Source of the DNA: Candolleomyces eurysporus
Taxonomy: Eukaryota; Basidiomycota; Agaricomycetes; Agaricales; Psathyrellaceae
Assembly (NCBI GenBank): GCA_027579435.1
Contig: JANBPK010000780.1
Coordinates: forward strand, 52,991-116,990
Length of the DNA stretch: 64,000 bases
Reading direction: 5' to 3'
In this document: positions 24,369 through 51,088 of the stretch, in pieces
How the letters are laid out: each line of letters starts with the position of its first letter
Numbering within the stretch: position 1 is the first letter of the stretch
Translations under genes and position numbers: made by a program
The notes under the pieces: generated by a model
Seen by the model: only the letters and a program-made list of their open reading frames with translations
What the model was told of the DNA's origin: nothing
Database searches by the model: none

Positions 24369-25223
24369 ATGTCGAACCCATTCGGTCTCCTAGGCATGGC
24401 CCGCCGAGCCACTGCCAACCTGCGACAGATGTCCTATGGCTCAACGGCTCCTGCCGCTGCCCCAGCGACTTCTTCCTTGACTTTCGACGACACCAACAGC
24501 GACACTGTTTCCATCTCCAGCGCGACCAAGCGCCGGACATTTTCTCCCCTACTCCAGACTCGAAAACCATCCCTAGCCGTCGTTGATAATGTCAACGCAA
24601 CATCCTCTCCCGCAACCTACCCTCCCGCCGCAGCCAAGGCCGTCCTTTCGGATGTCGCTTCCAACGGGAGCTCAACTATGTTGGTTCTCCATGAGCCGGC
24701 ACCCGCATCAGACACCAGCAGCGTGATGCTCCCCGAATCTCCTTGGATGGAGGCCGTCGAGCTGAGCAAGAGCGTGGACAGCATCGACTACTTCTCCCTC
24801 CCACCCCATAAATCCTCCGAAGACAGCGCCGGCTCTACGCTGGTCAATCTCGGCGACTGTTCTGCATTGGAGGCGGTGATAGAGGAGTTGAAGTTGGCGA
24901 AGAAGTGTCTGGAAGACCAAGTCCAGTGCTTGTCAGTTGAGAAACAGCGTGTCGCGGATGACCTCGAGAGCCTAACCCATGAGAACCAGCGCTCGGAGTG
25001 CGAATTGAAGGAGAAGGAGGGGAGATGGGACGACGAAAAGGCGGTATTGATCGCTGAGCGAGACCGGGAGCGAGGTCGATTCGAGCAAGAGAAGACGTCC
25101 TTCGCGGGACAAGTCCGAGATGTTATGAGCGAAAAGGAAGGATTGATCAAGGAGATCGCGCGGAAACAGGAGCAGTGGGATCAGGAGAGTGCACAGGCGG
25201 CGAAGCAGATTCAAGCCGCCACA
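24369..25223 (+). CDS. Coiled-coil/CBM20 protein, 5' part (split by transposon)
   Basis: The ATG at 24369 opens a frame of MSNPFGLLGMARRATANL, then a Ser/Thr/Ala-rich stretch to about residue 165, then a long heptad-like coiled coil (EAVIEELKLAKKCLEDQVQ onward). The frame runs into the transposon at the Thr codon ACA (25221-25223) and would stop two codons later inside the element (CAC TAG). The coiled coil resumes in the same frame at 51089 after the element. With the element and one ACA removed, the gene would encode 525 aa. As it stands, the product is truncated and lacks the CBM20 domain. Confidence 0.85.
25221..25223. repeat. Target-site duplication, left copy (ACA)
   Basis: ACA immediately precedes the left CACTA terminus and equals ACA at 51086-51088 after the right terminus. 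A 3-bp duplication is usual for CACTA (CMC/EnSpm) elements. Both copies read as the same Thr codon of the split host gene. Confidence 0.85.
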
Positions 25224-25236
25224 CACTAGGGGCATA
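25224..25236 (+). repeat. Left terminal inverted repeat
   Basis: CACTAGGGGCATA, starting with the CACTA signature. It pairs with 51073-51085 with one mismatch (G versus C at position 6). Beyond 13 bp the match weakens. Confidence 0.8.
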
Positions 25237-26233
25237 AATGAACAATAATTTCCACTTACTCAGTGAATATCTTGATATTTTTATTTAATTAACTTAACAA
25301 TGTAATCCAAAATTATTATATTAGAAGTCATCAAAAACCTTCGCAGCATCCACAAGGTAATTAAGGAACGGATGGTTTTGAGACGGCAGTCAGAAACCTT
25401 CCAGGTTGCGATCTGTATAGTTTTGAGAAAACTATCAAAGAGATGGTGCTCTGAGTATTCTGAATTGACCTTAGAATCCTAGGCCTTGGGTTCCAGATGG
25501 TTTTTCATTAAGCGGAGAGAAAGGTTAGGGCTGGTATGCTCTCAAGTCTTTTGGAAACGATCGCTAATGCCAGTTTTGCCATTTTGAACTACCTCCTCAA
25601 TGCAACCAAGAAACCTTCCAGGCCGGCTAAGGCAACGGACCTCTCCGCACGCTTCAACCGAAATCGACTAACAAAACGCTCTATCAACGCTAGTTTCCCA
25701 AAGTGTTTGAGTATGATTGAGATGGTGGGTGAAACCTTGAGGGATGGTATCTAGGGAATGTGCGGGAGAAGTGGAGGAAAGCAGTTCTGTTCTCCAGACC
25801 AATACATTCCTTAAAAATTACATTTTTAAACTGCCAATCGAACATAATAAAAGTTGCCATATTCTCAATCCAGTGAGCTGAGGCAGCCCTCATATTGCGC
25901 CCATGCTGCTCAAGCTAGTCGAAGCCATGGGGCAGTAGATATACCATTAGGAGTTTGATTATCTTGCAGGAGGGTCAGTGCACGTTTGGAAGCCGTGAAA
26001 TGAAAACACACTTCCGGACGAGCGGTGTCATAGTATACCCTCGCGGCCGGCTTCACCGCCAAACTCCTGCTCGATTGACTACAAGCGCTCTTTTCGCTAT
26101 ATGCATGCTGCTCATCCCTCTTCCTTGTCCTTGTTGACTACGTCGCCCTCGCTGTACTGAATATCCGTCACGAGTCGTGCAGGGGCAGGGGCTCACTTCC
26201 ACAAGCCGCCATCACTCTTCCTTCTTCTTCCCC
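25237..26233. other. Left arm of the CACTA element, noncoding
   Basis: AT-rich close to the end, then mixed sequence with short recurrences of AAACCTTC-type words (25334, 25394, 25611, 25729). No gene is visible. Such subterminal recurrences are common transposase-binding sites in CACTA elements, but this role is inferred. Confidence 0.45.
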
Positions 26234-26480
26234 ATGACCGCCTTCGACATCGTTGTGGTTGGCGCTGGTGGAGGCCCGGACGAAACCAAACTCTTGGTGT
26301 CTGTATTCCCCTCTCGATCTGCATGTACCCACTTATCTACCACCCTAGATATATTGGCAAATCACACTCTTCGTGAATGTGGAATTTTGGCTCTCGAAGC
26401 AGCAATGGATCAATCGATCACACATCACCCTGACGCCCGTCCCCTAGGTTCCGGCCAAGGCGGACTCGGTGTGAGATTAG
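26234..26480 (+). pseudogene. Captured fragment of class II cAMP phosphodiesterase
   Basis: The frame starting at 26234 reads MTAFDIVVVGAGGGPDETK. This matches the N-terminus of PDE1-type cAMP phosphodiesterases (FDIVVVGxGGGPDETN), a metallo-beta-lactamase fold. A following GILALEA segment and GSGQGGL fit the next conserved block with intron remnants between. Only these pieces are present, so it is a gene fragment carried in the transposon arm. 26481-26890 has no recognisable feature. Confidence 0.5.
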
Positions 26481-26891
26481 ATCGCGGGTGTGATCCGTAT
26501 ATTTAGTCGATGCCAGCGTGCCAGAATAAACTATCGGATCCTTGCCCTCGACGCTATACGAGGTGCTCCTCACCTAGTTATCCGAGCTTGCGCGGACTCG
26601 AGTGGTCTCTGGACTACTCCATCGGGCGCATACTGGAGACAAGTACTAGTCCTCGCCTATTCTTGTTTTGGTAGTTCCTGATTTGCCTCGAGGCAACAAC
26701 ACCTTTCATTCCCGCATCCCTAGCTGTTTCATATTCTAATTTTATGTGGAGCAGTGTGAGACCATCAGGAGGCGGGCCGGGGTGGACAGTCCTTCATATT
26801 CGGCATGGACGTGTCCGATCAATTTTGGTGATCTGCGCAAGTCTGCATGGAAGAGGAAATACGAGCAAGCACGAGAAAAGGTAGTATTCGA

Positions 26892-29275
26892 TCACGCTAG
26901 AGTACTAGGATGCCTTCCGTAAGATACTATAGAACTGAGTGTACGGAATCCTTGACTGTCCCTCTCCAAATTGTAACCCATCCTTGCCACAATCCCGACT
27001 ACACAAGTCCCGTACATGAAAACCGCATCCATCAACTTGATTGTTGGGTCCCTTTGTGCATCTTTGAAGTAATGGACTATCCTCTCTTTCTTGTTATAGT
27101 GGATTGCACCCTCCCTCTCGACACGGGTGGACAAATACTTGGACATCTGGACGAACGAAAGCTTCAGGGGCAGATGGCAGAGGTCGGCTGAAAATAACGA
27201 GTCTGGATTGTGCCCGACGATTGAGCCCTGAAGCGTATCGAAATACTCCGTATTGCAAAGGTGCTCCATGAAGATGAGAAGCTCAACTCTCTTGAAGAGG
27301 TTTGGAGGACAGTGGACTTCTTGTCGTGCTGAACAGTAGGCAATGCCAGCAAGGGTTCTATCATGAGCGTACGTTTGAAGAAGTTAACGGAAAGTACTTA
27401 CCGAGCCTGAGATATTCACATTCATTCCTGTGGCCACCTTTTCTCTCCCAGTCCTTCTCTCGGCACTCCTTCGAACAGTATAAGACGGATTCACAACCCG
27501 AACAGGTCTTACAAGACTCGTCTTGGTGAATGATTATATCAGCGCTATCCACAGTATGTCGGTGCTGTTGATATACATGGGATTAGCAACGCAAGGTTAA
27601 TAACAAGTACAGAGGTACGTGGAAGAACGTACTCTAGTGTAGTCACAAATTTGTTTAGTATAAGCTGAACGACTCTCCCTGTCCGCAAACTCGTGTGACG
27701 TCAATTGAACAAAGTTCAACATCGGAAGATGGTGGGGAACTTTTGATGTGATAAAGTCGAGGCTTGAGGGAGATACGGTTGCCAAAGTCTTCTTTGTAGC
27801 TCGTTGAACCTTCGAGTATACTCCATGGAGGACGATTTGATGCTGTACTTGCAACGCGCGATTGCTTTGTGGTTGGACCTGCTTTTGCTGATATGGAAGG
27901 AAATGATAGAGGAGGAGGGAGTAGAAACCACCGCGCACCGCTTGGGAGACGGCAGGGATCGGCTTTGAAGAAGCAAGGATGAAGGCGCAGACTTCAACAG
28001 CCGTCTCAAAGGCAAGGGGGCGAATAGTTGCGAGGGTTTCCGTAGAGATTTTTTGAGTTTGTGATAAGTAGGACTGATGGGCAATATGGTATAGCGATTG
28101 CATGATGATGTGGAACAGTTTGTGCTTGAGAATCTTCTTGTCGATTGACTCGGAGTCGAATTGCACGGAATCGCACCTTGATATACATTGAACGATTTTC
28201 CAGAGAGAACGAATGCTTGATATCGTTGATAGGTGGTCATAGGAACCTTTGATTATGAGGGTGAGTCGTGCACAAGCGTAGTGGAGTACCTGTTCCGGTA
28301 CATTATCCGACACCCTTTCGAGAGCAGCGAGAGTGTCCGCCTTGAGGTGGGTGCAGAGGTTTTGGAGAATGTCGATAATGGGGCAATTATGTAGATTTTG
28401 CTCCGTTCCGATGAGCAGTAGTGGGAGATCGTTGTTGTTGTTGGGAAAGGTGAAAAGTAGAAGGCACGCCTCTGCAGTTTCGGGGAGTTGGAAGTTGGCA
28501 GTTGGGCAGCTAGCGGACAAAGATAGCCTGTACAGAACGCAGGCACAGACTGCGGCAAGCCGTCGTACCTTCTCTTCCTTTTTTCCAAGCAGGGGCGCGA
28601 TGTCTCGAAGTAAAAAGACTACCCAAGCAACCATGGTATCCCATCGAACAGATGCCATCATCTGCGTTTTCTCTCTGTGAGAACTTTTGACGACCGATTG
28701 GATGATTAGAATGGAGTGAATGGCGTACTCCACGCGCAGGAGAGCACTAGGCCTCCCTTCGGCGACGTCGTCAGCATTGGGAAGTGGCCAAATTTGAAGA
28801 TTTGGCATGACAGCCTCGAAGACCGTAGCGGGGAACAGGCGGTCGGAGGTAAGCACTTCTTCTGTAAGCCACTTCAGATGGCGAGCAGAGCCCTTGCGGA
28901 CCTCCCCGAGTAGCTAAATCATGTTAATAGACAAGTGAATATAAATCTTTTCGACGTTTGGTGGAACCGGCGTCGACTCACCTCCACTTGCCTCGCAATT
29001 GGCAAAGGATCAATCGTTCTTCCAGGGCTGTGAGCGTGCTTGTACTCAAAGCAGGAAAGGAATTCAACTGGATCCAGTGGCATTGAGAACTGAATTACTG
29101 GCTTCTGGGCTGTGTGAAGGGCGAGGAGAAACAGCAGACCAATAATACTTAATTCCAGTCCCAACGTTTGGAAGTGGATATCAATGATGCCAACTACCCG
29201 ATGCGTCTCGCGTGATGCATTTGTGAGTAACCTCGAGCTCAAGCTATCATTAATGTGGATTATACAATGACGCAA
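26892..29275 (-). CDS. MYND-type zinc finger protein (5' end incomplete)
   Basis: Exons 29275..28982, 28913..27633, 27564..27398 and 27357..26892 join with introns of 68, 68 and 40 bp. Exon 3 has the MYND cluster CKTCSGCESVLYCSKEC followed by W and H-x3-C (GGHRNEC). Around it lie conserved-looking segments such as ETHRVVGIIDIHFQTLGLE, EHLCNTEYFDTL and KLMDAVFMYGT, typical of large Agaricomycete MYND proteins. A short upstream exon (SEVPKLIQMLLKL near 29300-29340) fits the family, but a canonical in-frame junction to 29275 was not found. The 5' end abuts the transposase 3' end, so the gene may be a truncated capture. Function is unknown. Confidence 0.65.
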
Positions 29276-29394
29276 TGAGGAGGGTGTCGTAACTTAAGCA
29301 ACATCTGGATCAGCTTCGGCACCTCCGAAAGGTTCAAGTTCAAACGAGAGTAAATTCTATTCAAAAAGTCAATAATAAGCAGAAATCGAACTTG

Positions 29395-32300
29395 TTAAGA
29401 ATAACGGATGCTCACCCTGCTAATAGGAAGAACGTGAACCATATCTTCTTCGTTGAAGGTTGTAATGGCCACATGGCAGCTGATAGACTCTAGCCGTATC
29501 AATCTTGCGGTTGTCGGGTTAAGCTTGCAGCAAAACCCCCCTGCCTGCCCATACCTACGATAATGCTCATCAGTTTGGGTGGGCGCATACTCCAGGACAG
29601 ATAGGTATCGATTCGTCTGTGATTCTCCGGTAGAGAGTCGATGGCGGTGAAGGAAAATGGATTGAATGACCCCGGCCTTCTCGCCTCCGTTGCCATGATT
29701 ATAGAGCACAGCACTGTCTCGATACCGTCGAGAATTCCAGATGGCGTAGGTGTTTCCATCATATGAAATAGCTTCGAGGAACTTGACTTCTCTGGAAACG
29801 GGTGTGTTTCTTTCAAGCGGAGACGACTGCAAAATTTCGCACAGTAAATCGAAGTCCGATTGGTTTAACTGGCCTGCTGTCTGTCCCAGGATGTCGAGGC
29901 CTTCATCGATGCCTTCTCGGTTGTTGAAAGGATTGAGAGATTCAGCCAATCGAAAGCCGCGGAGATATTCTTTTTCGTGCTTCTGCAATCGAGCGAGCAT
30001 CTCCTCCACTAGCAGTCGATCATTCGCAGAATCATCAAGCAAGGCGAGAATGTTCGCACTCCGAACGGCTGTACGAAGGTACGTCCCTTCGATTTCGCCT
30101 GCATAACTGGGTCAATGAGGCACGTGCTATCAGGATTGAGACCAACCTATCTTGTTATTCGTGTTCAAGCGGTGGAAAAACAGAATGTAGCGCTCGTAAT
30201 ATGGAGAGTCATGAGAGTGCTTGGGGCCAAACCGTTTGAGCATATCGCCAATGTGGAGAGCCGCATGATGGCTCGGAAGCACGCTGTACTCGGGGAAAAG
30301 TTCCAGAGTTCCTCTGGAATATGCAGACATGTGCAAGTCGTAGGCCTCGATTTGCGCAGGTGAGGACCGTCGCATGGTGGCGATCCGGACGGCTGATATA
30401 AGGTGCATGAAATTATCCAGCAATGCACGAGGCCGACCTTCAGACGAACCGAATAAACGAATGAGCGTTATCGGTAAGTGGATACAGCATATGATTCGCC
30501 AGTTATCGGCGCTGAGTTTTCCTCGTCGGACCGTTCCCCAGTCTCGCGGAACAGGGGTAATCCAAGAGGGAAGTTGAGTGCGATTCATATCTGCCCAGAC
30601 GGTTGTCATGACATCTTTTCCTAGAAACGCTCCGCTTGTCCTTGCGGCGGGTGCATCCTTTTCCTCGCTGAAATGCTGGGACAGCAACTCCTGCGTAGCT
30701 CGATCTTCTCTGAGCTGCGAATCATGTCAACATTGGGGAGTCCCAGAAATCTACAAGAAGTAAGGCTTACTTTTTGGAGAAGAAAATCGAACAACGGTCT
30801 CTTGAACGAAGACAAAGGGGATGTTCCCCTCCCAATGTGTGATCGGTCCAATTGAGCAACGTCGCAAAAATGAGCGATTGTCGCTGCTGTGATTCGAGCA
30901 TACAAGGCGTCCTTGCCCTCATCACCATTCACCGTGAGATCAAGAAGGTTCTTTGCCAACCGTCTCAGAGTGGTAGGTTTGGGGAGTTGGTGACTGTTGA
31001 GGGATGAATCTGGGGCTTCCCTGTCTTCTGCAGGTTCAGGTTCTCGATGATCTGCATCGTCCTCTTGCGCCGGTGCTTTGTCGGTACAATGAAGCAACTC
31101 TTCCTGGCAGATACTGAGTTTGGGATATCGTGTAAGGAACGTCTGAACCATCGGTGATCCTGGATTTTGACGCTGTAGAGGAAGATGGTCAATCCAGGTT
31201 ACCATTCAAATTGTAACAAACTGACCCATAAATGTATGTTCTTAGCCAGAATCCATCGGGTACCGACCACAGTTTGGTGGCCGGGAAAACGGATGTCGTA
31301 ATCAATGCAGAAACTGAACAAGACCTTGCGCTGGTAGCGAAGGAGTTCGTACAACAGATGTGGAGGGTTATCGAATATCAGTTCCTGGCATGCCCGTAAT
31401 GCTCGAAGATCGGTCTTGTCATCTATGACACGTTTGACACGCGCAGATGTGGGCGTTCGAAGGGCTACCCCGCCATCGCTTTTGACATCAACACGAAATA
31501 GAACTCGGACATGGTTTTGCAATAGGTTGAGGTCCAGTGAATGCATGGAGTCAATGACCGTGAAGAGGTAAGGATTCCAATACTCCAGCTCCAGTAAAGC
31601 ACTCCATCTCCAACCGCACGCCTCAAACACAGCCTGCTGGTCAGCCTCTGAGGCAGAGTCGCGATAAATTCTGGCATAGCGACGGATATGTCAAAGGTCC
31701 TTCTCTGGCCACTCATGACGATCAAGGTGATTGACATCGTCAATATCGAGGTCGCAGCAAGTACAGAAGTAGTGAGCAGTTGGCGCCCCTGGATATCCTA
31801 CGACCTGATGAGCAGCAAGCAGATCGCAGACGAGCGGGATAAGGGCGCCTTTGCACAATCTTCCCTGGAAGTGGTCATGAGTTCGGCTAAAATAAACGCC
31901 GGGATCCCAAAGTTCCTTCAAATCCTTCACGACGAGTTGCGTATAGTGATTGATCTGATCATTGGACGGCTTGGATGGACCGGGAATAACGCCTGCCAAG
32001 TAGACGTTTTGCGGTAGGTAACGTAGGTGCCACGGAAGATTCAGAAGGACCATCCATATTCCAGTGGATGAGGCGGACTGCTTTGCTGTTTTATTTTGGA
32101 AAGGGGAGAAACTGTCAATTGACAGAGAAAACGCAAGTCGCAATTGCCCTTCAGGGCCCGGAAAAAAGGGATTGTTTGAGGCATCCTTGAACGTCCGAAA
32201 TACGTCGCCCTGCCAAATGTCAACAGCTTCTCCACAATCTTCGTCTTCACCATCAAGAAGGCTTCTCGGATAGCTGTAAAGCAAGGTCTCCATCCCTGGA

Positions 32301-33462
32301 CGGGACAGTAGGCGTCCGAGCCAAGGCTTGAGGCCTTGGTGAACGTACTTGCGGATTGGCTTCTTGACATTCCCAACTGGTCCCATACTAATCTGTTTCC
32401 ATAGTGCGGCAGCACATGGATCGCTCGCTGGCGTTTTCTTGTACGAGCAATGGATTGGGTTGTCGAGGCGTTGGACAGGGTTGTACGGGTAGAGGCAATG
32501 ACAATCTGGACATGAGATATAAGTCGTAGTGATCGGGTCAAGGTTGAAATGGAATGTTAGGGGTCTGGGATCTTTGGGAACTCGAATTTCGTGCTCGGAA
32601 TCGAGGAAGTGAGATGCGATATCCTTGACTCCGGAGAGATACAGTTCGCATCCTCGTCGGGGAAGGGTGTAGTGATATTGAAGGATCAAAGACAAGATAC
32701 AAGCCGCATCAATGGCTTTACTGCGAGCATCTCTTCGTTTAAAGAAAATCTCTGCCCATATCTCAGCAATAGTATGAAGAAGGTATAATCTCGGGTAACC
32801 TTACCTGTACTAAAGACTGGGCGATCGTCTCTTGTTCCTCGAGCAGTGTTCCACTGCATTGCCTTCTCTCTCTCCATCCCCGCCAAGGTATCGTACACAT
32901 CGAGACAAAGTTCCGACACGGCCTCCGTTTGGTGAAATGTCTGAAGCATACGGAACATCTCCCACAAGGCGTTTTCCTGGTTGACATATGGACGGTTGGC
33001 CTGGTGGCGCGTCTCCAACGAGTGCGTTCCGGTATTTGGACGGGGCAATATTCCAGCCCGACCGTTTTCCTCTGTGTAGTCAAATTGATAGTCCCCGTTA
33101 TCCTTGGGATGATTGACGAATCTGAGAGGATTGTCGAGAGAGGTGACCGGTAATTCTTGGTAAACAGCAAGTTGCACTCGTATGAGCTGAACCCAGCGCT
33201 CTTCCCTCGCTGTAGCGTCCTCCTCTGTCGATGGCTGTTCATTATCAACATGTTGCAAGCCACCAGCAGGCTGCAGAAGGACGGCTAAGCGGTCATCTAT
33301 CCGATGCCATGCCCGCCGACGTGCGGACATCCATTCGCCCGTGCCTTCATACTTCCCGGTCGCGTTGTTAAATTTGAGGCACCAGGATCTACATCGACAA
33401 AGAACAGAATCTCCTCTGTTTTGTCGACTCCGTCTTGGTTGATTACCTGTCGCCTTGGGCAT
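29395..33462 (-). pseudogene. Tnp2-like CACTA transposase with in-frame TGA
   Basis: Exons 33462..32805, 32751..31226, 31172..30771, 30714..30147 and 30098..29395 join with GT-AG introns of 48-56 bp. Motifs: FSLSIDSFSPFQNKTAKQ and HLRYLPQNVYLAGVIPGP, then VIDSMHSLDLN, ALHIGDMLKRFGP and YERYILFFHRLNTNNKIGE. These match the Tnp2/CMC class transposases of Agaricomycetes (often called Plavaka), with plausible DDE acidic residues. A TGA at 31693-31691 interrupts a continuous frame between WPEKDL and HIRRYARIYRDSASE; no splice pair removes it. All other junctions are intact, so one nonsense mutation appears to inactivate it. The cargo genes flank it on both sides. Confidence 0.85.
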
Positions 33463-33673
33463 GGGCAGAGAGCGCGCTATAAAGAGGCAAGGAGGCCGGG
33501 AATCAGATCACAGTTTCAATTGCGGACTACGTAGTTTCCATTATACACAAACATACAATAAAGCAGCATGCTGGACGCGTATACAATATATACGAAAGCA
33601 AGATGACAGCAAAGACGATAGCAAACGGACAGCAGGAGGATAAATACGACAGCATGTTGGAAAGCAGGTAAAT

Positions 33674-35721
33674 TTAAACGTAGCAAAGATTTAGGTCAGA
33701 CAACTTGCTGAGCAACTCCACGTTCCTCTCCCAGCGCTTCTGGTGCTCGGAATCAACAACTGCTTGATGAGCTTCGACTCTGGATGCTTGATAAGTTCGA
33801 GATGGTTTGAAGCCATAGTCTACCCAACGAAACAGACCGCCTGCTGTATACTGCGTCACCGAGATCCGATACTCTCCGGGGCTGATGGGCAAGTTGCCAT
33901 GGCTGACTATTGCGGACGGTAGCAGAATTGTGACGCAAGGAGGAAATTCAACGATGAGTCTGTATTGCTTGAGAACAAGATGACCACCTTTCTTGTAGTT
34001 GAATGTTCCGCCGGATGTGATCGCACACATTCCCGTCGCCCAGTTCAGATGGTCCATGTGGAAGTCACAGACAACTGATGGCCCAAAGTTGAATGTCGTA
34101 GAGCCAAAAACACTCGACGCGAAGTTAGGAGACAAAGTCGGTTTCCATTGCAGCAGGTTAGCGAGAAGCTGCTTATTGGCAGCAAATAATTTAGGCATCC
34201 AGGTTTCGTAGCACTCTACCATGGATATCAGTCGAAGACTCCGAGAGTTTCGAAATGAGAGACAATACTCACCACTCTGCCACCGCGCGATGCTCCTGAC
34301 GGCGGAGGAGCGTAAGAGTTTGGATACGGCCGAAGAGTTTTGGGCGGTATGGTTCAGATTACGGGGTTCCTAGGCTGCGTGTTAGATCGATTGGATAGAA
34401 GCTGCACAAATGCAAACCTTTTGTCCTCCACCATGAGAAATTCCAGTCGAGATCGTGCGGAAATCGCCTCGATTGCAGTCGTCGATATCGGTTGCGTTGG
34501 AAGCGGAAAATTCAATGTTGGCCTGAGCATTGGACATATCGGTAACGAGGGCATGGTTCAGTCCTGCTTGGACAAGTTCATCGGGCATAGGGATTACAGC
34601 AAGAACCACCCTATCTTGGACATCCACACAGACATGATTGTTACTATGCCTTGATGAGACGTTGGACCATAAGTCTGGGAGATTGGACATACCCATCATA
34701 CTCAATCAATTGATACCCTTCCTGCAACAGCTCCTCAAATGAAGGCACCCTTTCAGATCTCGCCTTCGTCCCGATGAAGGCTGGCACTGAATGCGGCATG
34801 CATGCCTGGTCAATCGGCAAGCGCGTCACCTTGACTTTCTCTCCTGGATCAGCCATCTCTAGCTCTGGACGCGCAGTGTGGTGACCAGAAACGCTCTCAT
34901 ATAGGGATAGATATTCCCAAAACGCGGCTGTAGCGCCCTTCCTGTGCAGGAGAGACTCGAAGTTCACCGTACCATCAGCGGTCGCTTGCATGAGGAACCT
35001 AAACATGCAGGTCATCAGTGTTTGCATAATGGCACCGAGATCACGGCCTTACCTCAAAGTGACGATGTAGGTAGTGCAAGGAACGGAAAGCAGAAGAGGG
35101 AAAGAGGAAACCGACTCGTTGAACTCCGGCGCCGATTGTTTCGATCATCGGCAAATGCCGCGCCCTGTTGGGGTCGTCGCCACGATTCGGAATGCTTGCA
35201 GGCTGAAGATTATTTCGAGCATGTACAGGATGAGGGGCTGAGCTTGGGCATTGGAATTACGGCACTACTCATAATTTCATTCGTGGTCGCTACCTACTTC
35301 CTCGATCTCGAAACTGAAATCGTCCGGAAGGTCCACCCCGTCAACTCTCCCGCCACAAGACGGACCGAATTTCTTGGTGTCGAAAGTGCTTTTAACAACA
35401 TACGTGGGTGTCTTGTTTGATTTGCTCTTCCATGTCAGAAACCTCGGGTCGTCGTTCGGAAAGAGAGGGTGCTTCGTCTTGCCGTTATTCAAAAAGAAGT
35501 TGCGTGTTACGTTGACCCACGCCAATTCCTCGCGTTGGAACATGGCAGCGGTGTTTGACGACGAAACATGGTAGCTCAATAAATCTCCAGGCTGAGGAAC
35601 CTCGAGGAGGTGGAGTTCATCCGGACTTGCGATAGGTTTTGGCAAGCGAATGTTCCACCATTTGAACCTCTCTGGCCCTCTCCCAATGACGGAGCTCATG
35701 GCCGAGTATGCTGTTGGGTTC
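33674..35721 (-). CDS. TET/JBP-like 2-oxoglutarate/Fe(II) dioxygenase
   Basis: Coding blocks: 35721..35298, 35202..35053, 34998..34693, 34643..34418, 34369..34273 and 34215..33674. The last block holds the dioxygenase core: an HxD iron motif in FHMDHLNWATG, then GGHLVLKQYRLIVEFPP, the distal His in VSHGNLPISPGE, and the 2-oxoglutarate-contacting Arg region RISVTQYTAGGLFRW. Upstream blocks IGAGVQRVGFLFPSSAF and GGGQKEPRNL are characteristic of the transposon-linked fungal TET/JBP-like proteins. Family members oxidise 5-methylcytosine or thymine in DNA. The GAG/GTAAGG donor at 35052 and the TTTAG acceptor at 34999 do not keep frame, so a small lesion or unusual splicing is possible there. Confidence 0.8.
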
Positions 35722-35794
35722 CTGCGCGAGTAAAAGTCACGATTTTGGTCTTCCCCTGGATGGATGTGAAGTAAGGCTCACGCTGAGACACTAG

Positions 35795-37382: not shown

Positions 37383-37445
37383 GGTTCGTTGAAGAATGGA
37401 AAGAGGTAAAACGTGATAATTTGTGGTCTAAGCTAGGTTATGATA

Positions 37446-39544: not shown

Positions 39545-39561
39545 GATGAATCAGTATGCCA

Positions 39562-41583
39562 CTATAACGATTGAGTGGTCGATAGACGAACGTAGAGCGA
39601 TTCCACCACGATTGGTTTGTCGTAGGACATCCCCAATCCCAAGGGCAGTGCAAACATTGCAGTAGAAAGTGAGTGAGGCTTAGAATCAACGAGACGAGAA
39701 TGTACGAGTGACTTTTCAATGGGTGATGGGGATTTTGCGGGTGGTGCGGGGGAGAGAGGCAAATTTGGCTCAGTATTGAGATCTTGCCGTCGAAGGCGGC
39801 TGCTACGGCGAATGTCTTGATGCTCCAGCAGAGGATTAGAGTTGGGCAAAGTCGAGCTAACCATTTCTTCTTCATCGACATCATCCANTTTTTCGCTTTT
39901 TGTGTTTCTTCTTTGTGGATTTTGGCTTCTCAGGGGCTGAGTTGGGGTTATCTCTCTTTGTTGGAACCACGCTTGTGGATTTGGCCTGTTGATTTTGTGA
40001 GCCGCTACCGTCGGCGGATTGGCCTGGAGGCTTAGTACAGATGCCTGGCTTTGCCGATGCCGCTGTCGTAGATTGTGACGCATTGCCCACGGGGTCAGGT
40101 GTTGGAGCATCTGCGAGAGTCAGGTTTTCGACGTAAGGTGAATGTAGCACATCTTACCTAGCATGAAAAATGAGGTTTCTTCTGGCAAAAGTCCTTCAAT
40201 CTTATCCCATGGAAGTTGGTCGAAAAATTCAAAAACCGCTGAGAACAAGGATACGTTGTCACGGGAGACCTGCTGCAAAAGCCCCCAAAACCGTGTTTCT
40301 ATTTCCCGAAGGAGAGGTGGCTTTTGGTTTCCAAGACAAAAAGCAATCTGGTGAAGTCCATAAGTAATTAAAGCAGCAGTAATGATAATGGACGAACGAC
40401 CCACTTGCAAAACTGTCAACTTTGATGTCGCTCTGCCTGCTATCTTGAACCCTTGCAGGAGCAAGAGGGGAGAGATTAGGACGGCCAAGATAAGGGGGAG
40501 CTGTAAACCGTGTATTCCATAAGTTTTGATTGTTGTCTTGATGTACGCAACATCTTCTGAGTCGAGTTGCCCATATACACTGAAAAATTGATCAGTCAGT
40601 GACGCTGTAATACCTGAAGAGTGTTTTGAAATTCTTACCGCTCAACAAGAGAGATTATCTCATTGGCACTTGATGGAACCCCAGGAATCTCAAGAGGCTA
40701 AGACCAGAACATCAGCGAAAGTCCTGCAAAGCAGTGAAAGACATTACCGATTTTTTGGCAGTCATCACAGCGCCCTCAAAAAGGAATAGCATGCAAAAAC
40801 CGGCAAGATAGACGTTCTCCAAGAATGCAACAACCTCGGTGATTGAGTTCAGCGTTCGCATCGTCTTCAAACCAGCCATTGATGTTAGATTCTTTATACC
40901 GAGCTGATTACTGTCAAAGAGATCTCGAAAGACACGGAGATTCGCCTTGAGTTTTAGGAGGAGCCGCCGTACGTCTTTGAGGAGATCGAGGTCATACACC
41001 TAAGACAACAATAAGGGGAAGCCCCTTGTGTAGCAGAGAATGTCGTTACTCACAAGAGGTAGTGGAATAGGCAAGGGCTGCTTGCAGCGAGGGCTAGGGT
41101 GGGTCGGACAAAGGGAATATATCGACATCAGCGAGTAAGACTGGAGGACATATACAAGATTCATCCAGTCCCCCACTTTGAACTTGGAATCCAAGTTGTC
41201 TTTCATTTGGCAGAGTCGCAGAACTTCCTGTGCAGATTCCATGTTCAGCAGCTCCCTAATGGCATAGACCGGCCAACTGCCCTCGCCTGAGCGAATGAGA
41301 CGTTCAAGAGAGCTCAACCTGCTCTGAAGTAGCTGTAGAAATAGCAGTGAATTACCAGACGCAGTATAGGCAATTCTACCGTACTTACTTGAGTGTCAGG
41401 AGCGCCTGCACCAACCGTTGGCTCAGCCTGGGGTACATCGGGTAAGAGGTCTTGCAGCCCGGTCCAAAACGGTGGTTCTGCACCGCCAATCGATGGCGCT
41501 ACACTTTGGGTGCTTTCGTGAGGCGGCATAGAGAGAAAATCGTCGACTGGCAAATTTAGGCTGTGGGTTGAGGTGAAGCGCAT
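39562..41583 (-). CDS. Hypothetical protein with hydrophobic segment and basic tail
   Basis: Starts MRFTSTHSLNLPVDDFLS at 41583. Exons continue through SLERLIRSGEGSWPVYAI, DLDLLKDVRRLLLKLKAN and a hydrophobic run AGFCMLFLFEGAV, then IKTTIKTYGIHGLQLPLI and a second hydrophobic stretch LAVLISPLLLLQG. The C-terminal part is Ser/Pro/Lys-rich with KKKHKKRK and an RSSRLRRQ patch. The N at 39887 splits the frame; skipping it joins KKRK to MDDVDEEEM. The last portion may instead be the N-terminus of the downstream JmjC-like gene. Not recognised. Confidence 0.4.
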
Positions 41584-41805
41584 AGTATTGTCAACAGGGC
41601 GGAGTCTTTCATTGACGGAGTGGAAATGAGATCGTTAGTCAGCAGTTCTTCCACTTTCTGCTTAATAAGCAATTTGAGCAGGGTAAGAAGCGGGCGAGAC
41701 TGCAAAGCAGCCTCAAGGGAAGGGAAAAGGGGGAAAGCACTGATTGCAAATACCAATTGAAAGAGAAGACGGTGAAGCATTTAAAATATACTCTACATAG
41801 CGGTA

Positions 41806-44397
41806 CTACATTTTAATTGGCCTTCCCCGTAATTTATGTGTACGCATTGGCTTAGCCGTGAGCGTCGTAGTGACGGTTGCAGTGACTGTCCTAGTCACGG
41901 TAAGAAGCTTGGTTTCTGTCAATATTAATGTAGCGCCATGGGCACCAAAATCCTCATCTTCTGCATCAGTAAACTCCTCATCCACCGCGTCCTCAAAGTC
42001 GGAGGTAATCACAAACGGGGTCGGGAAGTTCGCTTCTGAGGCCAGGGAGTGCGTCTTGGGAGATGGAAGCATGTCTAAAGGGCGACACTTATTGCTTGGA
42101 CAGAGAACGAGCGAGAAAATAATAGCGACGCTGAGCAAGAACAGCGCTGTCATAGTGCTCTACAATAGGTTCAGCAGGGTTGTCCATAACGACAAACGTA
42201 ATGATAGCAAGGCTTCTTACCTTTGCACGGCGGATCACAAATTTCCGAAGTTCTGAAATTCTGGTCAATGGGGCTTCACGGGGCGATTTAGAACTGCTGC
42301 TGTTGCTAATGTTCTCCATATCATGTTGTTGATTGAGGATCAGGTCAGGCCTTCGTCGCCTTCGTATCCTGGAGGTGTCAGTACCGGCATCTAGACGACT
42401 CTCTTGCCCCTCCTTGTGATTTCTGTGCGTATTACCAGAGCGCACAAGGGAGTTGTCAAGCCAAAATGGGGTGAAGGCTGTTGTATCACCGAGAATTGGC
42501 TGAGAGGTCCTCGTACTTCCATGATCGAGTGAGGGTGTGGACGTTTCAAGATGTTGGAAGGGGAGATTGAAGGACCCGGGAATAGAGAGAATGATTGAAT
42601 CATTGCTGTGCGCAGATCGTGCTTCAGATCCAGGGGCGCTCAAACCTCGGGGACGTCCCAGGTTTCGACCTCGATGAGGCGAACCACTCTGGCTTCGGGG
42701 TAAAGAGGCTCTCCGTTGTTGGGAGAGTTGAGAAAGTGAACGCCTCCTAGAGTAAGAGGTTGTTGCATTTCGCCCTCGAGGAAGCGAACTACTTTGAGTG
42801 GACTCGGATATGTTTCCGTCATGGGTGCGGGAGCTCCTGCGAGTGCTAAGAGAAGGTGGTGCAGGTGGGAAAAAGGAAGAGGATCCAATATCACGATTTC
42901 GGCTGTAATGTTGCTCAAAAGCACCTCGGTGTCGGGGAGTTGGAGTGCTTGAGCGAGAACGAGACTGTGATCGTCGTTGGCCTTGAGAGCACGGAGCAGC
43001 GAGGGGTGTATGTTGAGGAGCGCGTGGAGTCATAAAGCCTGGTTGAAGCCTCATCTGTTGTACAATAACTTCATAGCCACAGGCTGAAGCCATTATTATC
43101 TCTTCACCAAGTCTGGCAACGGACTGCGCTGGAATCAAATATCTGGATGTTGTTTGGCAGTTGGAAAGACGTACCAGGAAACGGGAAGGTAAGGTCACAT
43201 TATGATTAGCTAAAACTTTGGTGGTTTCAACGCCGTTGCTCCCTGCAATGAGCCTGCCCATGTTATGTCCCGAAACGAATGCTTGCTCCGATAGAAAGGC
43301 GACCGGTAAGATATAGTTACGTTGCTGATAGTGGTCTTCAACCTTCGTGGTAGACATCCATGTCTGTGTGATCGGGGAGTACCAATCAATGCCCGAGTGA
43401 AGATTTGTCGCCGCTATCAGTCTTCGGGACGGCGATAAACAGAACGAGCCGCTTTGACCAGATTTGAGAGCGCAGAAAGAGCGGACTGAGATAGAACGTA
43501 CATTTGGGATCCATCCGGAACTGGAATCTCCCACAGTTTCACCATGCTGGAGGTATCGTATGCCCTTAAGCATCAAGTGAGACACGCGACGCTGTCCGGA
43601 AAAGTAAGCCAATACATACTCAATCCTGGNAAAAAAATGCGATATGTAGAGTATTTTCGTTCGCATACTGCAGCCCCAAAGGCCTTGGATGCTCGCGAAC
43701 GGGCACGTTCTGCCAGTCTCGCCCGGCGATGACTTCGTGAGGTACAATTCTGGCAGCTTCAGGGCCCCGAGGTTCGACACTAGCTGAATAGGGAATGAGC
43801 GTTTATTAGGTGAATTGAAACAATGGATTCTGATACCTTTGAAAGGGAGCTTCCAGACTTTGGTGAAGGTATCATGGGACCCAGCAAGCTCAGAAGCCGA
43901 ATCGTTGACCGCCAAACACGACACCAGCCCATTCGCACGAACAGCAGTGCTGAAAGGACGCTGCTAGTAATGAGTAACGAGCTCGACCCAAAAGAAGCAC
44001 ACTCCTCACCAATTCTCCGAAGTCATCGTAGAGAGTCGTACAATTGATGACTCCATTTGCTGATGCTATGAACAAAGCCAGCTGGGTGACGAACGGATGC
44101 CAAAGCAGATGGGAGATGGGGACATCATCGCCGGCGCTGAGCACGATCAATTTTCTCCCATTGTCCGTAAGATCTCGTATCTAGCAAACGTGAGCTATAG
44201 TTCAGCATACGACGAATTGAAAATGAGGAAGCACCCACCACAACGCGACCAGACTTGTCTCCAAAGGCGAGCAGCTTCCCATCGTCAGAGATGCTCAGCG
44301 CTGTGATGCTCCTACTATGACCGAGTGTTGTCGACCTGTTGCTCTCAACGACGAGATCGGCTCCAAGGACAATGTTTGCGTTAATTTTAGCGGCCAT
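41806..44397 (-). CDS. WD-repeat protein with Arg/Ser-rich region and C-terminal membrane segment
   Basis: Starts MAAKINANIVLGADLVVES near 44397. WD-like blades are GHSRSITALSISDDGKLLAF, SHLLWHPFVTQLALFIAS and GSFCLSPSRRLIAATN. A long Ser/Arg-rich stretch follows (SQSRSRSSTPTPRH and similar), then a transmembrane-like LFLLSVAIIFSLVL and an acidic juxtamembrane segment (DAVDEEFTDAEDEDF), with a Thr-rich and basic C-terminus. Several introns are needed, one containing the N at 43630. WD proteins of this layout occur near transposons in Agaricomycetes; the function is unknown. A separate short hydrophobic ORF at 41780-41556 was not assigned. Confidence 0.55.
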
Positions 44398-44768
44398 GGA
44401 CAAAGGTAAGAATGGGATACTTAATGCAACCCACCAAATTCACCCAGTATATGTGAAGAACTCGCCATCGCTTGTATCAGAGATTTTGCCGTGGCGAACC
44501 TCATCCCTGGAATGACGCCTGCCTCGAGGCACTCCAGGTGCTGAGATAGAGCCACAAGGCATGAGAATGCTTACAATGGACGTGAAGGTTGGCCCGCGTG
44601 TTTTGCCTTCTTCAGCTGTGGCACCCTGTTTAGATGTTTCAAACGAGGGCGGAACGGATCCTATGTTCTATGGATGTCTTCCATGTGATAGTTACATGAG
44701 AAGCCAAGATGATAACGGGTACCTAAGTTTCTGAATCCGGAGAGTGGTGAGGGCTGGATGGTGGTGAG

Positions 44769-45967
44769 ATGAGCGAGGCGCCCAAAGAGGCCGCGCGCGT
44801 CTTTGACGAAGCCATGAGAAAGTATACGTCCGTATTTGGGAACTCAACTTCCTCGGAATTGTTTCGAACGCCAGTGTTCGCTCTCGCGCAAGCACTCGGT
44901 TGGGAAGTTGCATTATCTCCCAGGGAGAAAAACTTGGTAAGTGGTATTGTTTACCAAGTCTTCTCAATTATATCCGACATCCAATTTGAATTACCGAGAT
45001 AACAAGGTATTAATCGAACAGGTACTTAACGATCAACACGTTGTGCGGCTAGCTATCGACCATCGAGAAACATTGGCATCCTGTTGTACCACGGATCAAT
45101 TCAGAAGGACTCGTGTTCACAATCTGACCTGTGGCGCAGATATTATCCCTGATGCAGCGCATTCATGCACGCGCCCAATGATTCTGGTTCACCACGGGAA
45201 CGGCGGCAGGGACGCATAAATCGGCCGAGTGGTTCTACTAATTTCTTGCTTGTCCTTAAGCTACCCACTCAGTTACACCTGGCTCACTACTGAAGACTCA
45301 CCCTCGATGGTCAGTAAACTACGTGTTATCTTCGCACCGACACATTTCTGACGCCAGATACTAGAAGACCCCTTCTACGCCTGTCACCAGGTCTCGCACA
45401 AGCATACAGACTCCTTCATCGCCGACTACAAGATCTATGGGCAAGAAGATGGTAGCTTCAGCCCAGTTTTGGTCGAATTTATGATCTAACCCGTTCACTT
45501 AGACTCGAAGCTTACAACCACAACGGAACTCGACGGGATCTGCCCATAGCATCCCAGAGACCGTCACCAGCACTGTCTCTGGCAGAAACACGAGGGCTCT
45601 AGCCGGGTTGGCAAGAGGCTACTTATACACCGCCAAGGGCTCGTCCTTTCGCAAAATCTTTGTTAAGACAAAGTCATCGGTGATCCAATTTGGGGGCCGT
45701 GATATTCCTCAAATTCGTGTTCGAGCTCTCTTTCGCTGCCCCCGCGCTACTATTGTCCACCATTGCTTTGTAACAACCCAAGGCCGCACCTTCCTCGCAT
45801 ACGGATTTGCTCACCCCAGCTTCCCGGTCAATGGGACCATTTCTCAACTGAAACCAACGACTGAGTGGCGCGGAGACATCGTTGTTGTCTGTCTGGGTTC
45901 TCGCAAGGGCCTCCTCCGGGCACCTCAGATTCCCAGAGCTACCACTGACCTCGTCGCATCACTGTGA
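44769..45967 (+). CDS. Hypothetical protein(s), transposon cargo
   Basis: Two blocks on the plus strand. 44769 opens with MSEAPKEAARVFDEAMRKY and runs to a GTAAGT donor after SPREKNL. A later block (about 45608-45967) reads MARGYLYTAKGSSFRKIF, SVIQFGGRDIPQIRVRALF and WRGDIVVVCLGSR. The second block resembles a short protein family seen beside Agaricomycete transposons. Whether both belong to one gene could not be decided. 45968-46370 shows no gene. Confidence 0.35.
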
Positions 45968-46370
45968 GTAGACTTCCTACAATGCTGGATCCAACGTTAA
46001 TTCAAATCAAATTCTAAAGCTTTGTTGCGCGGGTTACCGAATGTATTGATTTGCAATTTGCTGTACCCTTCCTGATTGAAGCGTAGATTCCCGCTTGTAA
46101 AGCTGTAGACAGTATGGCCCCTTACGTAAATTTCGTATCACACTTTTCATGATCAATGAACATGGTCTTGCATTATAATGCTCTGCTATTGAATACATCT
46201 AAACGATGAGAACAAGAACGGGGGGACAAATTGAACCTGCATAACTTTGCCGAAATCAGGGTAAAGTTATCAGGTACGCAGGCTAGGTATATCTACAACG
46301 TACTAGCAGTCAATGCCTCGTGGCTTTCGTTCTGTTCACCAGGACTAGCATCTTCTTTCAGTTTGACCTC

Positions 46371-48292
46371 ATGGTCTCAGCGCGTTTACAAGGTACCTTC
46401 GATCGTGACGCTGAAGAAATTCAAGATTCAATGACCAGGCTAGGAGAACGCCCGAGTTGGATGAACCCCGACCCCAGCGGATACCAATCCGATGTCGAAG
46501 AAAGCTTGCTTCGTACCAAAGCGACGAAGAAAGCAGCCAAATGGAAGCAAAAGGTCGCTTCTTCTGCTTTTTTTTGCATTGAAGCCCGTTCACCATTGAC
46601 TCCCTTTAGCTCCCCCATTATCAGGGCCTCAAGTCTCAAAGGCGGGCAAGAAGCTTTTTTACCTCCTCAACTAGGACGCACGAAAAAGACTCACGCAACT
46701 CGACCGTACCGTCGAGCCCATCCCAGATAGACACTGCAGGCAGTGTATGGCATAGTGCCCTTGATCTGGAAGACGACCTTGGAGGCTCGGATCAGAGATT
46801 TCATCGAGCTCAGACCGAGGAAAGGGAGTCTGATGACGAGCTCAGGCCTTTAGTTGACAAGATCAATTTGAATTCGAGCATCAATCTCGACACTAGAGAA
46901 CCAGCTCAAGGAAACGACAATGACGAAGAGATGGGAGCAGTTGAGGAGGCTGTACCTGCTCAGGCAAAACTCGGCCTGTCTCGGGAACATGGTCCGCCTG
47001 CCGGTGGCCCAGAGTCATCTCGGGCGGGTGACTTCGACTCTACGCGAGCTGAGGTGCGCTCCGTTTATCTGGACCTTTTATGGATTTAACAATGCAGTAT
47101 ATAGGGACTCACCATTGCCAATGCGGTAACGCAGCTCAATGCCGTTCTCGGAAATATTACCTCTCTTTCTAAAGGGATTGACGCGGTAACTGCAACGCTC
47201 GGCGAGAAATGCGACCTTCTTTCTCATAGATTGGATCAATTAGAGGGAGCTGTTACTCCTAGTACGAAGGCAGAATCTGTTCCCAGAACGAAAAAAAAGA
47301 AGCCTTATTCCCGAAGGACTGAAGAGGAACTGGCCTTCTCGGTGTGTCTCTGCTCGGATTTGAGTAAAAGTTGACATTATTCAACGACATACCTCTAGGC
47401 GAAGGTTCGGGAACATCTTGACAGTCTCCTTGACCTTCATGACGATCCTTTTGTGGATCAGGATGTGGCTGAGAGCTTTACTGAGGCCGTCCAAGACTCA
47501 CCCGAGCTACGCTGCTGCACTGCACACCGCTTCCAGATAGATATCCACGGAGGCGCCCAGAATGCGTGGAACACATCTGCTGCATTGGTCTTTGTTGAAG
47601 ACTTCATGAAGCTCAGCGACCTTCCAGTGGATCGGGCGGACAGCGCTATGAAGGCCTTCTTTACAAGGTTGAAGAGCATTAAGCAGTCTTTCAAACAGAC
47701 TCCTCGAAAACAAATGCGGAAAGCAACTTATCTCAGGAAGTATACGGTTCGTGCGGCACATTTATACTTTTTCTTTCCCGTCTTACAACCATCCCCTTAG
47801 CTCTTCCAGCGGCGGCTGGAAACCATGGCATCAATGAAGGTCTTGAAGTCGCATGTACCGCTTCTTCAAAAGTTGGGCGTTGAAGGGATGTCAAGCGACG
47901 AGGAGGATGAACCTGCAGCTCCGAACCCTCAAAACGCTGTAGGCCATAGCGATATATATCGTGTTTTAGTGCCTCGTTGGCGCTCCAAGGAATTGACAGC
48001 ATTTCTTCATGTTGTTGACTCTATCCACCTTCTCCAACGTCGAACCGATGTCGGAAGACAGCGCGGCAACTGGCCCCGCACTCGAGTCCACGATCCAAGC
48101 AACCCAGAACTCAGTAGTAAAACTGAGTTCCCAAAAAACCTCCCGAAGAACGCGTACGACACCCAATGGTTGGGAGCTTTTCCAAACGTCGCTCTCTCCA
48201 TTAACCCTGCTCCTGACTACAATTTTACGCATTCTCCCGAGGTCTTCCAGTATGTGATTTCTTTTGTTTTGAACACGGAGTTCTGGCGCTAA
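46371..48292 (+). CDS. Transposon-associated hypothetical protein
   Basis: Starts probably at MVSARLQGTFDRDAEEIQ. Exons continue via GTCGCT/CTTTAG to LPHYQGLKSQRRARSF, then an acidic region, then AVTQLNAVLGNITSLSKGID (coiled coil) with a lysine-rich patch. The next exon starts AKVREHLDSLLDLHDDPF, and the last is a conserved block with LLQKLGVEGMSSDEEDEP, RVLVPRWRSKELTAFLHVVD and FTHSPEVF before the stop. The LGVEGMSSDE and FTHSPE signatures recur in proteins near DNA transposons of Agaricomycetes, where they are usually unannotated. The biochemical role is unknown. Confidence 0.6.
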
Positions 48293-48466
48293 TGGCCGTA
48301 TAGCTTCTTAGTATCCCCTCATCATAGCTCCTGATAAATACATTCAATTTGTTTCCACTGTCGATAAACAAGGCATCTTATACGAGTACACGTATTCATT
48401 TTACATACATACATGTTATCAGAGTTGAATATTGCATGAAGAAAATCGACTGAGATTGCTTCCTAA

Positions 48467-50201
48467 TCAACACATGCGATGGTCGGGCTCGGGTAGGCCT
48501 CTTCTAGGGAGGACCTGTATCCAATCCCAAGCACGCAAATCTTCAGGTGTCATCATTATGGTGCTATACTTCACCCCATCCAAGGCGCGGCTTGCACGTA
48601 AGGCTTCGAGAAGGCGAGAATCTTTCCTACTATCAGCCCCATCGCTGAAAAAGAAGAGTTCGAGGGTGTTATTCCGGCCCAGATATTTTGCAAGAAGGCG
48701 GTGTTCGTTGCGGTCGAAGGAAAAGGTGGGCATATGGACCTTGATACGGGTTGTCGAGCCGAGGATATCTGGGATGTCGAGGGTCTCTGCAATGAATGGA
48801 GTGAAATGCCCAAGTACGAGGGTTTTCACGTTGCTGAAGAGCTTGAAAAATGCNTGAGCAGAGTGAGGCGAGAGTTTTGAGCTGATTTTGGGAGATAATA
48901 GGCAGGGCGCCAGATTTCAGCTTCAGTGTCTCTACTCCGCTAAGAAGGGATGACCAAGTAGTGTCCAAAGCAACCACATCGAGTGCCTGTCTCCACAGTT
49001 GCAGATATTCATGATCTGTAAACATCCGGTGGTCCTGAGTGTCCTCCCTACAAGCCACCATGAAAACTTCGTCACTACCCTCCGATCCACCGCATAGCCG
49101 AAGTTCCTTTTCATGATATCCCACTGTGAGCTGAGAATAGTTCACTTTCCAGGGAAGTTTCGCAAGGATGACCCTCATTCCCTCCCTAAAGCATTGCGAT
49201 CCAGCCGGCGTAGAGCCCATGGCCAGAACATTGCATTCTACCGTGCACCGTTTCAACGACGCAACCTCCAGCCCCGCAAGAAACTCGAAGCACTCTGGGG
49301 CACTCCCATAAACCTTCAACGATTCCAGACGGTCGAGCTCGACTGGGCCGGTGGGCTTGTTGCTGAATCCTTGCGCAAACATATCGTATATGACAAGGTT
49401 GATGAGATTTGGGAGTTGAGAAAGCCGAGAGAGCCATGCACGAGGGCTGAATGCAGAGGACGGAGAAAAACGGGGAGACGAACGAGCTTGGGCACAGTTT
49501 GCGTGAATAGCGAGCGTCGTAAGATTTGGAAGAGGGGGAAGGCTGCATGGGATACGCGTGGAGTTGCAGATGATATCACCAGCAACTTGAATAGTCTCGC
49601 AGGAGGGACGGAGGATTGAGGTCGCTGGGTGTAGGGGGATTTGGCTGGGCCATAGAAATGTGAAGTGGCGAATGGTTGGGGACGGCTCGGAAAGAATCCT
49701 CCCGAGTTCGGGCGTATCCCAAACGTAGTTTTCGCTGATGCGAACGTGAAGGTAGTCGCAACGGTGGAAAGACCGGAAGACTAATTGAATGTTCTCTCTC
49801 CTCTCATGAAAGTTGAGATTGGATTCTTGCCGATATATGATCCACGGCGACGATGTCCAACCTCCGATAATTGAGATGGGTTGATCGGCTGACTTCTCCA
49901 ACAAGTAAGAAACTCTGGATGGAGGGTCACGATCTATATTAATGATTCGTGCGAGTAGGAATGGGGAGTTCGTGATGATCTGGTACCAGTTTGAACAAAC
50001 TAGCATCGCCGAGCGCAGGGCCTTGGACTCCATCTCCAATGAGTGGGGGTGAGCACGATTCCTCGGGTCGACCATTTGTTTGAAGATTTCGATGAGTATT
50101 TCCCAGGGAATGAGCGCAACGAGGGCTTTCAAGTGATCTGTACAATATTAGATTAAAGGAAAATTGGTCAATAAGATGTAAGTACCGAATCCAGGCGACA
50201 T
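48467..50201 (-). CDS. F-box/LRR-like protein within the transposon
   Basis: A tiny first exon (50201..50186, MSPGF) splices over a 46-bp intron to 50139, giving FDHLKALVALIPWEILIEIF, an F-box-like N-terminus. Leucine-rich segments follow (LPPLPNLTTLAIHANC, LSQLPNLINLVIYDMF). The N at 48854 breaks the frame; skipping it continues SAFFKLFSNVKTLVLGHF to the stop at 48467. It is not closely related to the F-box copies at 369 and 14986. It lies between the cargo genes and the right arm, so it is either cargo or a captured host gene. Confidence 0.7.
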
Positions 50202-50237
50202 ATTGAAGGCAATATTGACTGAGGCTCTGAGTGAACG

Positions 50238-51072
50238 ATGAGTTTGAGTTCGAAGAAAAAACCAGTCCCACCTCTTCCTGGTTTACTTCCCTTGCTTATG
50301 CATATGTCAGCGGAAAGTTCGATTTCTGCTGACTCATTGAAAGTTAATCTCGGAGGCAAATGCGTAATGTATTGTGGCGCTTTGACTGGCTTGAACGTTG
50401 ATCATGGTGATCCGGCGCCCACTCTTGTGTGATCCGTCGCACGGAGGCATGGTGCCCTTTCACGCCTTCGGTTGTCGACCTTGGTAACGTGCTGCAGTTG
50501 AGTCAGTCGTGAGCTGTCAAGTCTCCGGATGACGTACCCACTCAGTCTTTGGATGCAAAATTGTCCTGTACATGAAGTGAGCTTGTCAATAAGGAGTAAG
50601 TGCGCTCGACGATTACAGGCGCCTGTCTAGCATTGACACGAGTAGATTCCTTCCAGGTGTGCTCAGAAACACCATGAATCTCTCTCTCTGAGCATGGGAG
50701 AGCTACAATAACCTGCTCAAAACTCTTCGCAATGATTTTATTCCTTATTCTTTTATTGATCGCTGGATTTTTTTTAAAATCGCATCTCATAACCAGCGCA
50801 TCATGGTATTATCTTACCTACTTACAACTCCCGCGCGCTTTTGAGTATTGTCCATCAGCTCTTTTTGCCGGATGGTTTTCTCAATCGCAACTCACACACC
50901 GCCTTGATGGAACTTCGGGTAGATTCCCGTACATTCTCCCTGAAAGTTATGACCAAATAAGCAAATATTACTCTAGATTTATATTAGTAGATAATTCCAA
51001 AAATGTCAAGGCAATTTTGGAGTAATTTTTAAATAATTATGTTGACATAACCACCCACAAAGGTTTTCAACC
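50238..51072. other. Right arm of the CACTA element, noncoding
   Basis: No convincing gene. It becomes AT-rich toward 51060. CCTTCCAGG at 50649 matches words in the left arm. A hydrophobic open frame at 50732-51025 lacks homology signals and was not called. Confidence 0.45.
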
Positions 51073-51085
51073 TATGCCCGTAGTG
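51073..51085 (-). repeat. Right terminal inverted repeat
   Basis: TATGCCCGTAGTG, the reverse complement of CACTACGGGCATA. It matches the left terminus at 12 of 13 positions and ends in the inverted CACTA signature directly before the second ACA. Confidence 0.8.
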
Positions 51086-51088
51086 ACA
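51086..51088. repeat. Target-site duplication, right copy (ACA)
   Basis: ACA directly follows the right TIR. It is a Thr codon in the frame of the 3' part of the split coiled-coil/CBM20 gene and duplicates 25221-25223. Confidence 0.85.

Follow-up and report, generated by a model that had tools for sequence, protein, structure and literature searches.

What interrupts the coiled-coil gene that begins at position 24369 of this stretch of the Candolleomyces eurysporus genome? The window, i.e. the whole stretch of 64,000 nt that was analyzed, corresponds to C1062:52991-116990 (contig JANBPK010000780.1) in a draft genome of 65.85 Mb and 1296 contigs. The original prediction, made on the window alone, held that a 25,862-bp CACTA element with CACTA termini, flanked by ACA on both sides, splits one gene into two halves, and that termini, duplication and reading frame independently agree; it proposed searching for an empty site and for further copies with the same termini. 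The element, its ends and the agreement of the three signals were borne out to the base. Taken as a whole, the locus is very probably explained by a large CACTA/EnSpm transposon of the CMC group, which would move by cut-and-paste and would have entered the coiled-coil part of a CBM20 gene through a 3-bp staggered cut.

The element spans 25224–51085, with no strand assigned. Its left terminal inverted repeat, CACTAGGGGCATA, lies at 25224–25236 on the forward strand, and its right one, the inverse of CACTACGGGCATA, at 51073–51085 on the reverse strand; the two agree at 12 of 13 bp. The exact terminal 13-mer matches only twice in the whole 64 kb, at the two ends of the element, and allowing two mismatches adds one match, at 31389, for a chance expectation of 1.31 matches. 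The ACA target-site duplication occupies 25221–25223 on the left and 51086–51088 on the right (strandless in both cases). In the outer 777 and 786 bp, the only subterminal repeats are two-copy direct repeats of 12–22 nt, which are weak as arrays.

The 5′ part of the host gene (24369–25223, forward strand) is an open coiled-coil frame that stands in phase 0 at the left ACA, and the same frame is taken up again at the right ACA by the 3′ part (51089–51959, forward strand; exons 51089–51566, 51635–51730 and 51811–51959). When the 25,862 bp and one ACA are removed and the two introns are spliced, a gene of 525 codons with a C-terminal CBM_20 domain results (PF00686, E = 1.6e-25), so that the continuous 525-codon CBM20 gene proposed in the original prediction is recovered, given this splicing. 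The left junction reads ACA CAC TAG, Thr-His-stop; because the element terminus provides this stop, the left half would end at 286 amino acids and would not include the CBM20 domain. At the right terminus, an in-frame ATG starts a 198-amino-acid frame running into the right half of the gene. Judged by sequence, the insertion breaks the host gene, with the terminus supplying a stop just after the junction.

Empty sites were found, in paralogues, for two independent insertions. The same contig holds, upstream of the window, a tandem paralogue without the interruption (C1062:37900-39507), whose frame of 662 amino acids is 64–72% identical to the host protein by piece. Aligned with the joined window over the junction, this paralogue agrees at 82 of 93 bases, ungapped, and has ACA once. 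The match is only local, as the paralogue elsewhere carries about 250 bp of additional coiled-coil sequence; no CBM20 match was found in its 662-amino-acid frame. For the second insertion, C293:16048 carries the same left end (97.8% identical to the window, with 95.5% identity in the 2.9 kb of left arm that follow), and C824:45612 carries the same right end (97.9%); both are bordered by AGG. When their flanks are joined with a single AGG, the 452-column alignment to an uninterrupted relative, C293:6819-7270, has 80.5% identity, and AGG appears once in that relative. From the matching flanks and duplication we infer that C293 and C824 hold two halves of one copy. Because ACA and AGG are each single in the respective uninterrupted relatives, the element ends and the 3-bp duplication are confirmed by two independent insertions, as read from the assembly. 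A third copy, represented by the right end at C863:847, is 84–90% identical to the window over the right 3.2 kb, save for a gap of about 170 bp. The proposed search for copies with the same termini thus returned C293, C824 and C863, which fix both ends to the base.

The C293/C824 copy lacks the segment corresponding to 28837–49034 of the window, and both of its arms adjoin, in inverted orientation, a 349-bp sequence from another repeat (99.7% mutual identity), which has 46 matches in the genome. The window and C863 are in agreement across 49035, and hence the window has the older arrangement at that point. Between the window and the C293/C824 copy, 63 of 96 transitions lie at CpG sites, as expected if the copies were methylated. 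The 349-bp end sequence (CAGGGGTGATAG...) starts at position 7750 of the C293:12000-21999 stretch and occupies C824:47668-48016; the other end of that repeat was not found in C293, in which 14.7 kb follow to the contig end. Farther along C293, at about 26.6 kb, there is an F-box match (E = 9.5e-8). No near-identical full-length second copy was found in this genome. A 12-base terminal pattern matched seven times genome-wide, five of them outside the window, against two matches for a backward control, a weak result by count as the pattern is short; judged by neighbouring sequence, three of the five outside matches belong to this element (C293, C824 and C863). The remaining two, C1063:98184 and C1222:23705, were rejected as copies of it; they have CACTACGGGCATA and about 50 bp in common with each other (82%) and are possibly ends of another CACTA family. 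Isolated left-arm fragments (83–92%) that do not include a terminus occur at C1093:204384-205371.

What, then, would move such an element? The interior contains a tnp2 transposase gene at 29306–33462 on the reverse strand, modelled in several exons by spliced alignment and carrying one in-frame TGA. It matches Transposase_21 (PF02992, E = 2.2e-10; 40.5 bits against a cut-off of 28.6), and its protein is 51% identical to one from Candolleomyces aberdarensis, the best matches being from Psathyrellaceae (Agaricales). In an alignment of 19 sequences, a DDE triad is present with C(2)C and H(3)H between the second D and the last E; the catalytic D and E were assigned by eye, and the motif definition follows PMC12730594. 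Against the PDB by sequence, the transposase gave one match, at chance level (E = 0.085). The catalytic core of a homologue, P0003, has a predicted RAG1/Transib fold (PDB 6oep, 6pqx; 10–14% identity). The element is assigned to CACTA/EnSpm because this tnp2-type DDE transposase has the CMC motifs and a homologue with that predicted fold, which supports the CACTA/CMC reading of the original prediction. At its C-terminus (29431–29892, reverse strand) the transposase seems, from its predicted fold, to end in a BAH-like domain, of the histone-reading, chromatin-reader type. The likeness to the RAG1/Transib recombinases concerns the predicted core of P0003, the BAH-like tail lying outside the RAG1-aligned part. 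The term BAH does not occur in PMC12730594, and no literature search aimed at BAH domains in transposases was made. Because the transposase frame is interrupted by the TGA, which could be a sequencing error, this copy does not have the intact frame of an autonomous element and may be immobile now unless helped by another copy. Genome-wide, in-frame stops within the tnp2 domain number 11 TGA and one TAA, spread over 8 of 50 tnp2 matches; this is the spectrum that CpG decay of methylated CGA codons would be expected to yield.

By its ends, duplication and transposase, the element is a member of CACTA/EnSpm, from which it departs by size and gene set. Its termini start with CACTA, with the same ends in the other copies, and both ACA and AGG fall within the 2–3-bp duplications of the class. 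Fungal EnSpm/CACTA elements, as described in PMC12730594 and PMC12810828, likewise have CAC..GTG ends, a 3-bp duplication and a DDE domain with C(2)C and H(3-4)H, whereas the element here measures 25.9 kb and carries F-box, WD40-like and MYND genes and a further gene, ORF-X. The claim that it is unusually large for its class is supported by comparison with elements of 16–20 kb with 4–5 ORFs in the red alga Chondrus crispus (PMC6431247), 16.5 kb in Chenopodium quinoa (PMC8978399) and about 7.5 kb in Cryptococcus (PMC12810828). The Chondrus EnSpm elements resemble it in being oversized CACTA elements and are smaller, a comparison of size that leaves gene contents aside. Plant CACTA elements (PMC8978399) share the tnp2 transposase and the 3-bp duplication and have a second ORF, for which ORF-X is the candidate here; in that account they hold gene fragments or a satellite array, whereas here at least one extra gene is under purifying selection and has relatives near other tnp2 genes. 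Some fungal EnSpm elements carry TET/JBP genes as additional load (PMC12730594); Pfam scans of all six frames across the element, with X placed at stops, gave no TET/JBP match. Introns fragment genes in such scans, so weak matches can escape.

Four accessory genes accompany the transposase. A MYND-finger gene lies approximately at 27399–28913 on the reverse strand (zf-MYND at about 27418–27516; PF01753, 29 bits, cut-off 22.7), and an intron is assumed in it because the zf-MYND lies in a different frame from the main ORF. It is retained in the C293 copy as far as 28836, and outside the window it was found only in C293 and, at 28%, in C1008. A WD40-like gene, also an approximate model, lies at 42089–44397 on the reverse strand (PF00400). 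ORF-X, a second conserved protein to which no function is assigned, occupies 46920–48292 on the forward strand, its 3′ end being approximate; it has no Pfam match, and its 34 exon matches in the genome merge to 22 loci. An F-box gene, likewise an approximate model, lies at 48470–50201 on the reverse strand (PF12937); its protein had no PDB match by sequence at E 0.1. Scored against the 8000 and 7995 candidates with the most words in common, the F-box and MYND proteins each had one homologue, both from JGI metagenomes, that of the MYND protein at 55% identity.

Are these genes part of the element or passengers? With the window contig left out, 11 of the 21 ORF-X loci have tnp2 within 20 kb. ORF-X is itself present within that distance at 6 of the 11 loci of the F-box family and at 5 of the 7 loci of the WD40-like gene, with a spacing of 4.0–4.3 kb at four of the latter. 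F-box relatives are found within 10 kb of tnp2 at 2 of 11 loci (P = 0.01) and within 20 kb at 5 of 11, and in C1101 a tnp2 gene is immediately preceded, on its own strand, by a predicted F-box gene. Of two unrelated repeats taken as controls, one has tnp2 within 20 kb at 1 of its 29 loci (46 matches, merged by hand) and the other at 1 of 30 (matches to a repeat of about 150 bp). The binomial values presuppose that loci are placed uniformly, and they include loci that are in part related (C863, and three F-box matches in C1092). Compared with C863, the F-box gene of the window has 65 synonymous and 54 non-synonymous changes (dN/dS 0.23); the non-synonymous share, 54 of 119, gives P = 1e-6 even with 67% expected, a clear indication in this comparison of purifying selection on the F-box gene. 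The same test against C824 was not significant (P = 0.06 and 0.25), and those on the MYND gene (P = 0.0014 and 0.047) and ORF-X (P = 0.011 and 0.22) were weaker than that of the F-box gene against C863.

These data bear on the strongest of the alternatives, namely that an element of ordinary size was later swollen by unrelated nested insertions and that the extra genes are passengers. Three observations agree with it: a dispersed repeat of about 150 bp in the left arm (26474–26624, forward strand), also within the match of the C293 copy and the site at which 30 of 37 genome matches fall alone; six pairs of tnp2 and ORF-X in this genome that are only 5.1–5.9 kb apart; and a segment, 33.5–42 kb, that is mostly devoid of Pfam matches. 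Against it, relatives of F-box, ORF-X and WD40-like genes occur together at other loci and the F-box gene appears to be under purifying selection. When the genome was searched with the interior DNA (26800–49800), the matches were confined to the arms of C293, C824 and C863 and to the tnp2 genes (65–71%) of C556, C580, C1092 and C1101, i.e. 10 matches in total and no multi-copy nested element, which falls short of proof as very common words were skipped. We consider the nested origin unlikely. The joint recurrence of F-box, ORF-X and WD40-like relatives, in many cases near tnp2, and the purifying selection on the F-box gene make it probable that the element is more than a bloated copy.

A chimeric assembly, in which unlinked host fragments had been joined to transposon contigs, is highly improbable: the genome is a draft and three single Ns lie within the element, but an exact duplication, a reading frame restored through usable splice sites and a paralogue reading straight across are not expected of a random join, and the same ends recur in other contigs. 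Scarcely any likelihood is left to a composite or another class of large element merely holding tnp2, as the size and accessory genes recall giant cargo elements, but the CAC..GTG ends, 3-bp duplication and CMC motifs fit EnSpm, whereas Plavaka needs TGT..ACA or CATCA..TGATG ends and KDZ/Zisupton an 8-bp duplication (PMC12730594), and no Pfam match to a Starship tyrosine recombinase captain was found in the six frames, where intron-split genes could hide a weak one.

Several observations weigh against a large CACTA element with a retained gene set. The empty sites are paralogues and not the same locus in a relative, and the linkage across the junctions is that of the assembly. The two halves of the C293/C824 copy lie on separate contigs, and another repeat takes the place of its middle. 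C863 was dropped as a full relative: it has in common with the window only the right 3.2 kb and a 97-bp piece, the similarity stops at 47395, and farther in lies a distinct tnp2 gene (main piece 33% identical) whose orientation relative to the F-box gene is the opposite of that in the window. Inward of the 13-bp ends, the two termini have little mutual likeness. The F-box and WD40-like matches are below the Pfam cut-offs (23.1 bits against 24.3 and 27, respectively), and gene order and orientation differ among the accessory-gene loci.

Besides the element, a tandem array with a 42-bp unit, about 10 copies in its main row, lies at 53180–53706 of the window, and a tandem cluster of long coiled-coil host-gene paralogues lies upstream of the window at C1062:37500-49400.

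For the CACTA transposon favored here, family knowledge suggests that the tnp2 protein, a RAG1-like DDE enzyme, would bind the 13-bp ends, cut and join them; insertion with a 3-bp staggered cut at ACA would leave the host frame otherwise intact. Going by its fold, the BAH-like tail would attach to nucleosomes and bias the transposase's sites of action. ORF-X, which accompanies tnp2, is a candidate for the second, TNPA-like CACTA protein on grounds of co-occurrence, and the co-occurring F-box and WD40-like proteins may act on a host factor, perhaps via ubiquitin-linked degradation. The most likely role of the accessory genes would be to aid the element itself. The element seems to be a member of a lineage of oversized elements that retain F-box, ORF-X and WD40-like genes. 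More tentatively, and as a possibility rather than an expectation, this could be a giant mushroom CACTA lineage with a conserved kit for managing host silencing, comprising a BAH-tailed transposase, an F-box/WD40-like pair for host-factor turnover via ubiquitin ligases, a MYND protein and ORF-X. No report of CACTA elements with F-box genes in mushrooms was found in the literature listings, and the gene set of the element as a whole is likewise absent from them; PMC4738786 contains both terms, its content not having been assessed.

Beyond the original prediction, the analysis adds the tnp2 transposase, accessory genes that recur elsewhere and other copies, and the locus offers a base-exact, apparently recent case of an oversized CACTA insertion. 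Starships (PMC12134995) are likewise large, gene-carrying fungal transposons; they are described there for Pezizomycotina, with a tyrosine recombinase, in contrast to the DDE chemistry and CACTA ends of this basidiomycete element. If the silencing-kit reading is true, the element would stand alongside Starship-scale elements and TET/JBP-carrying transposons as their DDE-transposon counterpart. The findings provide evidence that oversized CACTA elements retain certain accessory genes instead of random cargo, and, if the BAH-like tail and the F-box gene work as proposed, mushroom cut-and-paste transposons would be readers of chromatin, possibly with an action on host regulators as well.
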